From IMG/VR virus record IMGVR_UViG_3300023096_000010, positions 1 to 41,591 of that record: a DNA stretch of 41,591 bases; one strand, 5' to 3'. Source of the DNA: a virus. The notes under the pieces are model-generated. The model was not told where the DNA came from and searched no databases. It saw only the letters and a program-made list of their open reading frames with translations. Below are positions 6,482 to 41,591 of the stretch, one piece after another (position 1 is the stretch's first letter; each line of letters starts with the position of its first letter). The position numbers were made by a program, and so were the translations under genes.

Positions 6482-8065
6482 TTAATAAAATGTTGTGTAT
6501 TTCCCTCTTGTAATATGAATATGTTGTGCTTTACCATTAGGATAAATGACTAAATTAGATACTGACCATTGTGACATCCCAAGATTGTACCCCATACGAA
6601 GTTTAGTCAATGTTCCCACACAATGATGACCATCTGTTTTTGACGCGGAATGGCTGTGGGCTGTAACGGTTTTTACATTTAGGTTTTTAAACTGTGTTAT
6701 GGAACCACGTGATCCTGATGCTCCCCGATCTCCATGAAGACCTAGTTCAAAATCTAAAACATTATATGACTCATCTACACCTAAACATTTAATATGATCA
6801 AACTCCGACTCTAAAATATAAGCTATAATTCCTTTAGGAGCTAACCCTTGAGCAGTTATATTAGCGTATTTAAGATATAAAGCCTTGTTTCCTTCTTTCC
6901 TCCAATCTTCGTTTTGTAACCACCTGTCTATAAAATCGTTATGATTAGCTGAAGGAACTACATAGTTATATTTAGGCTTGTTTTTAAACCAATCAGTTAT
7001 ATATTTCAATTCACGTTCTAATGAGTTGGAACCATCTTGTTCTCTTCTTAGTAATTGAAATGGGTTTCTTTTTTCATGGTGGGAAATGGAACTCATGTCT
7101 GCAATGTCATGGAGAATAACATGATTCGGTTTAAATCTCTCTAGGATCTCAAATGAAACATCTACATTATTCTTTTCTTCTGATGTCAAGTGAATGTCTC
7201 CTAAAACAGCAACTTCAATTTTATCATTATTATAGATATTACCATGTTCCACTTTATAATTCAAATCATAGAAATCCCCCTTTTTATCAGCAATTATTTG
7301 TCTAATATGAAAAATATCTCCATCTAGTTCTACAATTACACATCCAATTTGATGATTAAACTCACTTTGTTTACCAATTTTTGTGTCTGTGTAGTTTTCA
7401 ACAGTGATTGCTCCAGTAGTAAGTAAAACTTTGCTTGGATAACCTTCTAAAACTGGCAAAAACTTTAAGTGAGATCTAGGATGGCCTATAATGCAACTTT
7501 CAAGCCCTGTAAGACCATTCATTGAAGATAATGGAGTAGAAGCTGTCGGTTGAATTTTAACGTCTGATAACACCACTAAATGTTTATGTAAATTATGACG
7601 GTTAGCGTCCAAATAAGGTAGTACTTCTTTAGCCCAAGTATTTTTAATGTTCTTTTCTTTTTCTTCTAAGCTTTTACTAGATGATAGGGATGATGGATTA
7701 CGGTAACGGCCAGCTATTACAAGTATGTCTGCATCAATATATTCCGCATAATTCTCTATATTTTTAAGAAAGCCTTTATGTACAGGTGTATCACTTTGAG
7801 CCCAGGTTATAAGAAAACGTTGTTTAGTTTTATCATGCTCTTTTTTCTGCGCTTCTTTAAATACATCTGTATCTTCAACAGTTTGTACATTATTTGTAAC
7901 TCCTTTGTCTTGCATTTTTTTGCGGAAAATTCTAGTTGTGGATTCTGTACATTCTAAATTGAATTGATCGCACATTAATCTTGTGGCTGGTGAAACACCG
8001 TGTCCTTTTTCAACTAAGTCTTTGACAAAATTAAACTGTTCTTTTGTATATTTTCTTTTTTTCAT
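6482..8065 (-). CDS. T5 A1-like protein: HTH-type N-terminus plus metallophosphatase domain
   Basis: 527 residues. The first 60 residues are basic and helical, like a DNA-binding helix-turn-helix. The rest carries a calcineurin-type metallophosphoesterase motif series: VLGDIHL (GDxH), SANHNDFIDRW (like GNHD), ELGLHGDRG and TAHSHSA (like GHxH). The middle (TPVHKGFLKNIENYA, VLSDVKIQPTA, IIGHPRSHLKFLPVLEG) matches homologues of the phage T5 pre-early protein A1, which is required for second-step DNA transfer and host DNA degradation. The role as a nuclease acting on host DNA is inferred from T5. It is followed by its own terminator. Confidence 0.72.
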   Translation of the reverse strand: MKKRKYTKEQFNFVKDLVEKGHGVSPATRLMCDQFNLECTESTTRIFRKKMQDKGVTNNVQTVEDTDVFKEAQKKEHDKTKQRFLITWAQSDTPVHKGFLKNIENYAEYIDADILVIAGRYRNPSSLSSSKSLEEKEKNIKNTWAKEVLPYLDANRHNLHKHLVVLSDVKIQPTASTPLSSMNGLTGLESCIIGHPRSHLKFLPVLEGYPSKVLLTTGAITVENYTDTKIGKQSEFNHQIGCVIVELDGDIFHIRQIIADKKGDFYDLNYKVEHGNIYNNDKIEVAVLGDIHLTSEEKNNVDVSFEILERFKPNHVILHDIADMSSISHHEKRNPFQLLRREQDGSNSLERELKYITDWFKNKPKYNYVVPSANHNDFIDRWLQNEDWRKEGNKALYLKYANITAQGLAPKGIIAYILESEFDHIKCLGVDESYNVLDFELGLHGDRGASGSRGSITQFKNLNVKTVTAHSHSASKTDGHHCVGTLTKLRMGYNLGMSQWSVSNLVIYPNGKAQHIHITRGKYTTFY

Positions 8066-39811: not shown

Positions 39812-40237
39812 TTAAAATTCTCTACTTTCTTTGAACACGTCTGGATATAACTCAATAGCCTCTAAAAGATCTTTTTTATTTTTATAACACAGGCGCGCAG
39901 GGACACGAGAATTAAACGAGCTAAAGTCCACATCGTTCAAACGGAATTCATCCATATAAAACCAAGCATAATGTTTTTCCTCATTGTTATTTTTCCAATT
40001 TGGACTCCAATTTTTATTATAAAAAGCAGCCAACATAACTTCTTTTTGATAAGCTTTTACATGAAAAGGTATTTCTGCATATTTTTTATCAAATTCTTCT
40101 TGATTTGTATTGTGGTATTTAAAAATTTTATCAAAATTATTAGAAATCTCTTTAAATACTATTTTTTCAAAAGTTGATTTTTCTTGATCAATTTGAAATC
40201 CTTTAGGTGCTTCAATCGTTAATTCTTGTGTTTTCAT
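39812..40237 (-). CDS. Retroelement variable protein 2, 141 aa
   Basis: N-terminus KTQELTIEAPKGFQIDQEKS is a segment I recognise from Bacteroidota phage proteins. The C-terminal part, KHYAWFYMDEFRLND then VPARLC, matches the fold segment of the partial variable protein at 41356-41591. Residues 98-117 are encoded by the variable repeat (39887-39946); those at adenine-mutated template codons are Asp102, Asp104, Phe105, Ser106, Phe108, Asn109 and Arg111. A constant tail of 24 residues follows. The gene overlaps the reverse transcriptase gene by 26 nt. Probably a small binding protein with a diversified surface; target unknown. Confidence 0.8.
   Translation of the reverse strand: MKTQELTIEAPKGFQIDQEKSTFEKIVFKEISNNFDKIFKYHNTNQEEFDKKYAEIPFHVKAYQKEVMLAAFYNKNWSPNWKNNNEEKHYAWFYMDEFRLNDVDFSSFNSRVPARLCYKNKKDLLEAIELYPDVFKESREF
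39887..39946 (-). repeat. Variable repeat VR2
   Basis: 60 bp aligning without gaps to the template repeat at 41277-41336. Twelve differences, 11 of them at template adenines (minus strand); the other is a C-to-G in the last part. The 3' GC-rich end (CCCTGCGCGCCTG) is shared with VR1 and probably includes the IMH. Confidence 0.88.
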
Positions 40238-41156
40238 ATTTATTTACTAAATTTTTACTGTTACAATGTACTAACCAACTATTATGGTTTCTCTTAACTT
40301 TATTTTTAATATACTTCCTTTTAATGGATTTTCTAATCAATGTATGTGTGTGGTAATGCTTGTAGCCAACCCAATCGATACTCCTAGCACTTACAGGAAA
40401 AACTTGATAATTCCCTTTTATTTCTAATTTTAATTCTGTTCTTAAATAATCCTGAATTTTATAAAACCACTCCCATAATTGTTCCTTATTATCAGATAAG
40501 AGTAAGATATCATCACAATACTTAAAGTAGTATTTTACTTTTAATTCTTCTTTAATCCAATGATCAAAATAAGTTAAATAATAGTTTCCGAAGAACTGAC
40601 TTGTAAAATTACCAAGTGGCACTCCTTTATGAGAATCTACAATATCATCTAATAAATATAATAAATCAAAGTCTTTAAATTTTCTCCTCAGCATTTCTTT
40701 TAAAATCTCATTGTTTATGCTCGGAAAGAATTTTTTAATATCTAATTTCAAACAGTACTGTGTGCCTTCAACATCTTTCAGAACTTTTCTTAGGTTGTAT
40801 GAGGCTTTATGAACACCTCTTCCTTTTACACAACTATATGTATCTGCTGTAAAAACAGAAACAAATATAGGTTCTAAGATATTTAAAATGGCGTGATGCA
40901 CTATTCTGTCAGGAAAATAAGGTAGTTGTGAAATCGTCCTTTCTTTTCCATCTGATATTGTAAACACATTATATTTAGAAGTTGTAAACTCTTTTGTTTT
41001 TAATAACTCATGTAATTTTAAAATATTTTCTTCTTCATTTTGTAAGTGTCTTATCACTCCATATTGCTTTGATTTTCCTCTTCTGGATTTTTTATCCGCC
41101 GAATTTAGGTTTTCAATGCTAATTACCTGTTGGTATAAGTTGTTGTGTCTTTTCAT
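40212..41156 (-). CDS. Diversity-generating retroelement reverse transcriptase
   Basis: 314 residues. Motifs: NVFTISDGKERTIS (63-76), LKLDIKKFF with catalytic Asp139, GVPLGNFTSQFFGN (178-191) with the LGxxxSQ hallmark of DGR enzymes, YCDD (213-216), and a thumb with IDWVGYKHYHTH. Length is usual for DGR reverse transcriptases. The template repeat lies 120 bp upstream of the start, and variable genes lie on both sides. It would copy the template RNA with adenine-specific errors and transfer the cDNA into the variable repeats. No accessory avd gene is visible; it may lie outside the window. Confidence 0.93.
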   Translation of the reverse strand: MKRHNNLYQQVISIENLNSADKKSRRGKSKQYGVIRHLQNEEENILKLHELLKTKEFTTSKYNVFTISDGKERTISQLPYFPDRIVHHAILNILEPIFVSVFTADTYSCVKGRGVHKASYNLRKVLKDVEGTQYCLKLDIKKFFPSINNEILKEMLRRKFKDFDLLYLLDDIVDSHKGVPLGNFTSQFFGNYYLTYFDHWIKEELKVKYYFKYCDDILLLSDNKEQLWEWFYKIQDYLRTELKLEIKGNYQVFPVSARSIDWVGYKHYHTHTLIRKSIKRKYIKNKVKRNHNSWLVHCNSKNLVNKYENTRIND

Positions 41157-41276
41157 TGCGCTAACGCTTTATTTCTCTGTGTATAGAAACTCGCTTTCAA
41201 TTGCTTTACTAACGAATTTTTAAGGCTTTTATTTGTTTTTTACCAAGAGGTAAAGTATTTCTGCTTATTAAAATTT

Positions 41277-41336
41277 ACAGATGTGCGTAGGGACATTAGA
41301 ATTATTCGAGTTATAGTTCACATTGTTCAAACGGAA
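41277..41336 (-). repeat. Template repeat TR of the retroelement
   Basis: 60-bp non-coding repeat between the partial variable gene and the reverse transcriptase, in the same direction. On the minus strand it begins TTCCGTTTGAAC and is rich in AAC/AAT codons: adenines occur exactly where VR1 and VR2 differ from it. Its 3' end CCCTACGCACATC differs from both variable copies at three adenines in the same way, as expected for IMH* versus IMH. A small hairpin (TTTACC/GGTAAA, 41239-41254) lies between TR and the reverse transcriptase. Confidence 0.9.
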
Positions 41337-41355
41337 GGGGCAGAAACACTTGTTT

Positions 41356-41591
41356 TTAATTCATATAATCTTTCCAGATGTCTTTAAATTGAGTTGCTGA
41401 GTAATTTCCTATTTCAATAGATTTTACACAGAGGCGCGCAGGGACATGAGAATAATTCGAGTAATAGTACACACCGTTCACACGGAAATTCTTGCCTAAA
41501 TACCACCAAGGAAAATATTTGTATTCATTATGGTCATCCCAGTCAAGTTCAGTTCCATTGTTTAAGGCTTTTGATATAACTACAAGTTCCT
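41356..41591 (-). CDS. Retroelement variable protein 1, C-terminal part (cut by window edge)
   Basis: Frame open from the right edge to TAA at 41356-41358; 77 complete codons are visible. It reads ELVVISKALNNGTELDWDDH, then a Trp/Tyr-rich stretch, FRVNGVYYYSNYSHVPARLC and a constant tail ending QFKDIWKDYMN. This is the C-terminal layout of a small-protein family abundant in Bacteroidota phages. VR1 encodes the FRV...RLC part; residues at mutated template codons read Gly, Tyr, Tyr, Tyr and His. First gene of the retroelement transcript as seen here. Confidence 0.82.
   Translation of the reverse strand, partial: ELVVISKALNNGTELDWDDHNEYKYFPWWYLGKNFRVNGVYYYSNYSHVPARLCVKSIEIGNYSATQFKDIWKDYMN
41428..41487 (-). 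repeat. Variable repeat VR1
   Basis: 60 bp aligning without gaps to the template at 41277-41336. Ten differences, nine at template adenines; the tenth is a T-to-G near the start. Located inside the partial variable gene, 69 bp before its stop. Confidence 0.88.

Follow-up and report, generated by a model that had tools for sequence, protein, structure and literature searches.

A probable two-target phage diversity-generating retroelement that apparently lacks Avd

Phage diversity-generating retroelements (DGRs) are usually explained as a means of receptor switching through tail proteins, and the accessory gene avd is common in DGRs but not universal. In Bordetella phage BPP-1, whose cassette consists of brt, avd, the template repeat (TR) and mtd, the inverted repeat after the initiation site (IMH) is important, though not essential. 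BPP-1 homing requires Avd, and it is the spacer of this cassette that recruits bRT-Avd and primes the synthesis of cDNA (PMC12875486). The C-type lectin fold is usual among DGR targets (PMC8144416). Two-target phage DGRs have already been published, as has the placement of one target in a counter-defence island (Quimbyvirus/LoVEphage); Benler et al. 2021 described this arrangement in Quimbyvirus, proposed a role in phage-host conflict and called both Quimbyvirus targets C-type lectins (PMC8008677). In further phages, second VRs were found near counter-defence genes (PMC12629997). Apart from these two papers, we found no literature on phage DGR targets that are early or intracellular. A single template with two hypervariable targets is also seen in the gut phages nd4 and nd12 (tentaclins, PMC10743442) and in the Bacuni phages (PMC8143477).

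The locus described here occupies one end of a viral contig of 41,591 nucleotides (IMG/VR record IMGVR_UViG_3300023096_000010), which is referred to as the window. Its features, all on the minus strand, are as follows.

41356..41591 (minus strand): target gene 1 (the VR1 gene), C-terminal 77 aa, PHROG 11581; the 5′ part lies past the contig end
41428..41487 (minus strand): VR1, 60 bp; 10 differences from the TR, 9 on TR adenines; IMH core CGCCT at the 3′ end
41340..41351 (minus strand): 5′ strand of the TR clamp stem, AAGTGTTTCTGC, 12 bp with 41253-41264
41277..41336 (minus strand): TR, 60 bp; IMH* core CACAT at the 3′ end
41253..41264 (minus strand): 3′ strand of the TR clamp stem, GCAGAAATACTT, pairing with 41340-41351
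41241..41252 (minus strand): spacer hairpin I (TTTACC/GGTAAA), covarying over 35 relatives
41188..41218 (minus strand): spacer hairpin II, covarying over 35 relatives
40212..41156 (minus strand): DGR reverse transcriptase (RT), 314 aa; LGNFTSQ at about 40596-40616, YCDD at about 40509-40520
39812..40237 (minus strand): target gene 2 (the VR2 gene), 141 aa, weaker PHROG 11581 match
39887..39946 (minus strand): VR2, 60 bp; 12 differences from the TR, 11 on TR adenines; same CGCCT core as VR1

Read along the coding (minus) strand, target gene 1 with VR1 comes first, followed by the TR, the RT and target gene 2 with VR2. The original prediction, made from the letters of the window, had described three 60-bp repeats, a DGR-type RT and a second variable gene overlapping it. 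The repeats were recovered exactly at 41277-41336, 41428-41487 and 39887-39946, and target gene 2 does overlap the 3′ end of the RT gene, by 26 bp. The RT assignment was confirmed as well: LGNFTSQ and YCDD are intact, the RT matches PHROG 1423 (RT; 3e-107), it is related to DGR RTs of other phages, and among solved structures it is closest to the reverse transcriptase of PDB 8ub7 (9 entries; 9e-49), which we take to be the BPP-1 bRT. The cassette had also been called complete, and this has to be withdrawn for the window, because the contig ends inside target gene 1 and leaves a 77-aa fragment. Extension to the right, which had been suggested for finding avd and the N-terminus of the first variable protein, was possible through relatives and succeeded in part: the closest relative, L005 (138.6 kb; RT 88% identical), has a whole VR1-gene homologue of 187 aa, but avd was not found. 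The contig end (41591) is about 105 bases from VR1; assemblies often stop at hypervariable loci.

Adenine makes up 18 of the 60 TR bases. Compared on the coding minus strand, the TR differs from VR1 at TR adenines in 9 of 10 cases (p = 2.8e-5, hypergeometric) and from VR2 in 11 of 12 (p = 9.7e-7, hypergeometric). The predicted figure of 20 of 22 differences on template adenines is thus correct as a count, but two of these adenines, counted in both VRs, are IMH marks, and five substitutions are shared. Because these five identical substitutions are common to VR1 and VR2, we counted distinct positions once: 14 of 16 are on A (p = 1.8e-8), and 12 of 14 when the two IMH marks are removed (p = 1.6e-7). 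The marks were recognized in a family comparison, where the core CGCCT is present in the VR of 233 of 259 distinct TR-VR pairs and never at that place in the TR. Because the core is near-fixed in VRs and absent from TRs, TR adenines 53 and 55, which belong to the window's difference between CGCCT (VRs) and CACAT (TR), are best read, on this comparison, as fixed IMH/IMH* marks rather than diversification. All 18 TR adenines fall at codon positions 1 or 2, and no A-to-N change yields a stop codon; such stop-proof placement of adenines is the usual design of a DGR template. No further TR copies were found in the window, the next-best site having mismatches at 18 of the 42 non-A positions.

The RNA between and around these elements has a recurrent structure. 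For the spacer hairpins in 35 relatives, 95.6% of cells are paired and 87 are compensatory (22.5 in shuffles); pairing in slid controls is at most 48%. The clamp stem that encloses the TR scores 8 or more in 67% of 81 loci, versus 17% with partners swapped; where the GGTTGT motif is clear (35 loci), pairing reaches 95.0% of cells, against at most 86.7% with swapped partners. For the window RNA by itself, MFE folding gave no significant result (z -0.86), so the case for RNA structure is built on covariation. Rfam gave no match at threshold in the window, and a tRNA search there gave none.

The window cassette resembles that of BPP-1 in its related RT, the TR upstream of the RT, the TR-RT spacer, the A-specific VR changes and the IMH/IMH* difference at the 3′ end. 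It differs from BPP-1 in having no avd that we could find and two targets instead of one, which are small and unlike the tail protein Mtd. The TR is also shorter (60 bp versus 134 bp), and the VRs end about 21-26 codons before the stop; with these constant codons following the VR, the IMH is coding, unlike that of BPP-1. The RNA has a clamp stem and two hairpins but, unlike BPP-1, no clear stem-loop after the IMH, where inverted repeats show a weak excess (15% versus 8.5% in shuffles).

The RT has 160 relatives in the viral and genome contigs searched, and those from named genomes are nearly all Bacteroidota, with a few Ignavibacteria, Clostridia and Bacilli. A TR/VR set could be detected in 154 loci: two VRs lie upstream of the TR in 108 of them, one in 31 and three in 12. 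Two VRs are therefore normal for this RT family (108/154), and the peculiarity of the window is the position of the second one; the relatives L006 and L007 likewise have one VR on either side of the TR and RT. Cassettes of Bacteroidota prophages (L008-L165) share with the window a homologous RT (mostly 49-61% identity), homologous paired targets, the clamp stem, the spacer hairpins and the lack of avd in the virus records tested. They differ in that both targets precede the TR and, in most, a gene of PHROG 19665 lies at the RT 3′ end. This conserved gene of about 98 aa, which has no Pfam match, overlaps the RT 3′ end in most relatives (L008:6950-7243 and about 100 further ones). A search at E<=10, run without a positive control, did not recover it from the window, L005, L006 or L007; in the window lineage, target gene 2 occupies its slot.

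The window is cut upstream of VR1, and the search for avd covered relatives. No match to PF05635 was found in seven virus records (L005, L006, L007 and four more, including the 138 and 143 kb relatives), a search that a diverged Avd outside PF05635 would escape. Copies of PF05635 do occur in bacterial genomes, without demonstrated linkage to a DGR. To judge from these records, the window DGR apparently lacks Avd; in the relatives that carry it, the PHROG 19665 gene is possibly a replacement for Avd. Because BPP-1 needs Avd, the argument for activity without it in the window lineage is drawn from comparative variation.

This variation is clearest between L006 and L007, which are near-identical and have the gene order of the window. 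Their TRs show 0 differences in 59 positions, and every difference in VR1 (10/10) and VR2 (16/16) is on a TR adenine; elsewhere, the RT has 14 differences in 939 positions and the VR2 gene outside the VR has 2 in 286. The original prediction had proposed that related phages be searched for variable VRs with a constant TR, and this pair has both; dead RTs, which it had named as the opposite outcome, were not seen, as the RTs of relatives are catalytically intact. Other pairs behave in the same way: L032 and L033 differ at 11 of 3,500 bases, all in one VR and all on A, and L011 and L089 differ at 21 positions in 3.5 kb, all within two VRs and all on A. Four non-A positions separate the TR of the window from that of L005; at these, the two VRs in either phage agree with their own TR, which is what repeated TR-to-VR transfer predicts. 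Because natural VR variation is confined to TR adenines while TRs stay constant, DGR activity is supported, and an active DGR acting on two genes is a well-supported reading of these sequences. The claim that one template serves two different small proteins is borne out by the adenine bias of VR1 and VR2 together with the variation in relatives. No further VRs were found outside the cassette in L005, L006 and L007; L006 (143 kb) has the TR and two VRs only. Target gene 2 of L005 (L005:6926-7352) has a +1 frameshift inside VR2. This may reflect an assembly error or else a dead variant, which homing could overwrite.

The target proteins were compared with PHROG 11581, a family of unknown function: the VR1 protein matches it at 9.7e-13, the VR2 protein at 1.8e-4, and 90 of 92 target-family members match it. 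The VR1 and VR2 proteins are also homologous to each other; the two proteins, expected to be different, are encoded by separate genes but belong to one family. Across this family the targets have 119-190 aa, and a hydrophobic stretch suggesting a membrane or signal segment was seen in 0 of 92. They have no Pfam domain and no PDB sequence match, a Foldseek search against PDB returned nothing significant, and hhalign comparisons with Mtd and with two further DGR targets gave no support for a C-type lectin. The AlphaFold model built with 92 sequences has a helical body (mean pLDDT 87.9) and a VR (residues 145-157) below 50; the model of the window VR2 protein is like it, again with the VR below 50 pLDDT, so that neither model gives a confident fold for the VR. 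Overall, the predicted structures and the profile results make a C-type lectin fold less likely in these targets; Benler et al. (PMC8008677) do assign it to both Quimbyvirus targets, one of which appears to be a homologue. The targets of nd4/nd12 and Bacuni have C-type lectin, Ig-like or pilin-tip-like domains, whereas those of the window have PHROG 11581 and nothing in Pfam; Bacuni also has an avd gene, unlike the window cassette as far as found.

A close described counterpart is LoVEphage, a culturable Bacteroides phage. Like Quimbyvirus (PMC8008677), it has one TR and two targets, and its distal non-structural target is homologous to the window targets (hhalign 99.7%); the Quimbyvirus defence-island target also appears to be a homologue of the PHROG 11581 targets. 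In the VR window of the LoVEphage homologue, all 22 variable sites (22/22, five genomes) are TR adenines, and the TR is identical in the four genomes compared. The gene lies about 16 kb from the RT, on the opposite strand, among methyltransferases and a Lar-like restriction-alleviation gene, and the other LoVEphage target, annotated as a tail protein, is next to the RT. In LoVEphage and BI-TP1 (L181-L185, L190, L191), one TR serves an annotated tail protein and a distant PHROG 11581 protein, whereas both window targets are of the non-structural type and flank the TR and RT. The RT is a single ORF in the window but split between frames in LoVEphage. Two reading frames were seen in all four LoVEphage genomes searched (L186-L189), and Benler et al. 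described overlapping frames for the Quimbyvirus RT (PMC8008677).

The neighbours of the cassette give some indication of when its targets may be used. The cassette of L005 is preceded by RNA ligase and PNKP genes, and that of the window is followed by a DnaQ-like exonuclease gene. Among 80 non-redundant target-family loci, MuB-like and other early genes lie upstream on the same strand in 28, and late (neck/head) genes lie downstream on the opposite strand in 23; in one more locus the cassette is between a RecE-like exonuclease and a helicase. Judged by gene content, the two-target cassette sits in the early/replication module of many Bacteroidota prophages, and in the neighbourhoods examined the targets appear to lie outside tail modules, the tail-gene scan having covered part of the relatives' flanks.

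Could the locus be a decaying DGR, inactive in the window phage, with the adenine bias as its fossil? The frameshift in VR2 of L005 would fit, as would the failure to find avd, and the contig is too short for the remainder to be examined. However, the RT motifs are intact and the RT gene is conserved, fresh A-only variation is present in both VRs of L006 and L007, which have the same gene order, and the VRs track their own TR; decay is therefore improbable. We give still less credence to an RT of another class (retron, DRT/UG or group II-like) accompanied by repeats that arose as paralogous duplications or by gene conversion. Profile libraries that contain no DGR model do match the RT to group II, retron and DRT models, but the NCBIfam matches are far under their curated cut-offs, the best solved relative is 8ub7, and conversion would not select template adenines, where 14 of the 16 distinct differing positions are found; the A-only variation of L006 and L007 speaks against this reading too. 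Taken as a whole, these sequences are best explained by an active, apparently Avd-lacking phage DGR with two targets, and we consider this explanation very probable.

What an active DGR of this kind would diversify is a separate matter. On the one hand, the targets could be virion adhesins, that is, small tail-attached receptor-binding subunits in ordinary BPP-1-like tropism switching. Viral DGR targets in clades 1, 4 and 6 are mostly annotated as tail proteins (PMC8144416), and crAss-like phage cr55_1 has a DGR target whose C-terminus shares the VR end motif GSRL. Moreover, because the LoVEphage TR diversifies an annotated tail protein besides the PHROG 11581 homologue, this type of VR is usable in receptor binding too. 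On the other hand, the targets are small (119-190 aa) and lie outside tail modules in early/replication neighbourhoods, the LoVEphage homologue is on the opposite strand by methyltransferases and a restriction-alleviation gene, and no second VR was found elsewhere in L005 or L006. On balance we regard the adhesin reading as unlikely. Better supported, and in our tentative view quite possible, is that the targets act inside the cell, in counter-defence or host takeover, and are not tail receptor binders; their expression timing and cellular location are read from gene position and composition only.

Comparison shows A-specific changes, a constant TR, natural variation in both VRs, covarying RNA, no avd found in near relatives and a position outside tail modules; beyond this, we infer the RNA-RT contacts, the retrohoming biochemistry and the target function as follows. 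A transcript through the TR and spacer would fold so that the 12-bp clamp stem holds the TR, with the two hairpins following. These spacer hairpins, by analogy with BPP-1, would recruit and prime the RT, here without Avd. Copying of the TR by the RT would then introduce errors opposite adenines, and the resulting cDNA would replace the homologous VR in either target gene, the difference between CGCCT (VR) and CACAT (TR) near the 3′ end presumably serving as the directional IMH/IMH* mark. The residues open to change would be encoded by the VR and followed by a constant C-terminal tail that is predicted to be helical. The targets would be soluble phage proteins of the early or replication phase, with a variable loop that may bind varying host factors.

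What is new is the combination: avd not found, a template RNA held in a clamp, two paralogous targets of non-tail type, and one of these in the slot that the ~98-aa gene fills in most relatives. A broader proposal, which we put forward with considerable doubt, is that Bacteroidota phages and prophages carry a widespread class of Avd-free DGRs with clamped template RNA and pairs of small cytoplasmic, replication-time proteins. If true, such a class would amount to an antibody-like library at work within infected cells, directed, for instance, at host defences that change. The single published exception of Quimbyvirus/LoVEphage here becomes a family: targets of this type are present in most of the two-target cassettes found with this RT, and many of them lie in early or replication modules. 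Diversifying selection may be acting on a variable protein inside the cell, or else a virion adhesin of unknown kind has been missed, and both are testable. The missing avd and the clamp stem also make this a smaller system, suited to asking what the minimum requirements of a DGR RT are.

A search for terminase with PF03237 found nothing in L005 and L006, and PHROG 2 gave weak matches. At 6482-8065 the window encodes an A1-like DNA transfer protein (PHROG 1745), 49% identical to those of Cellulophaga phages phi17:2 and phi4:1. The A1-like protein in common with phi17:2, together with the relatives, suggests a Bacteroidota host, and the window phage is probably a large virus of such a host; the hosts of L005-L007 we infer from relatives only. 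The largest target set among the relatives belongs to L123 (Dyadobacter), in which one TR (6813) is accompanied by four candidate VRs (2017, 6150, 6634 and 14080) over 12 kb.
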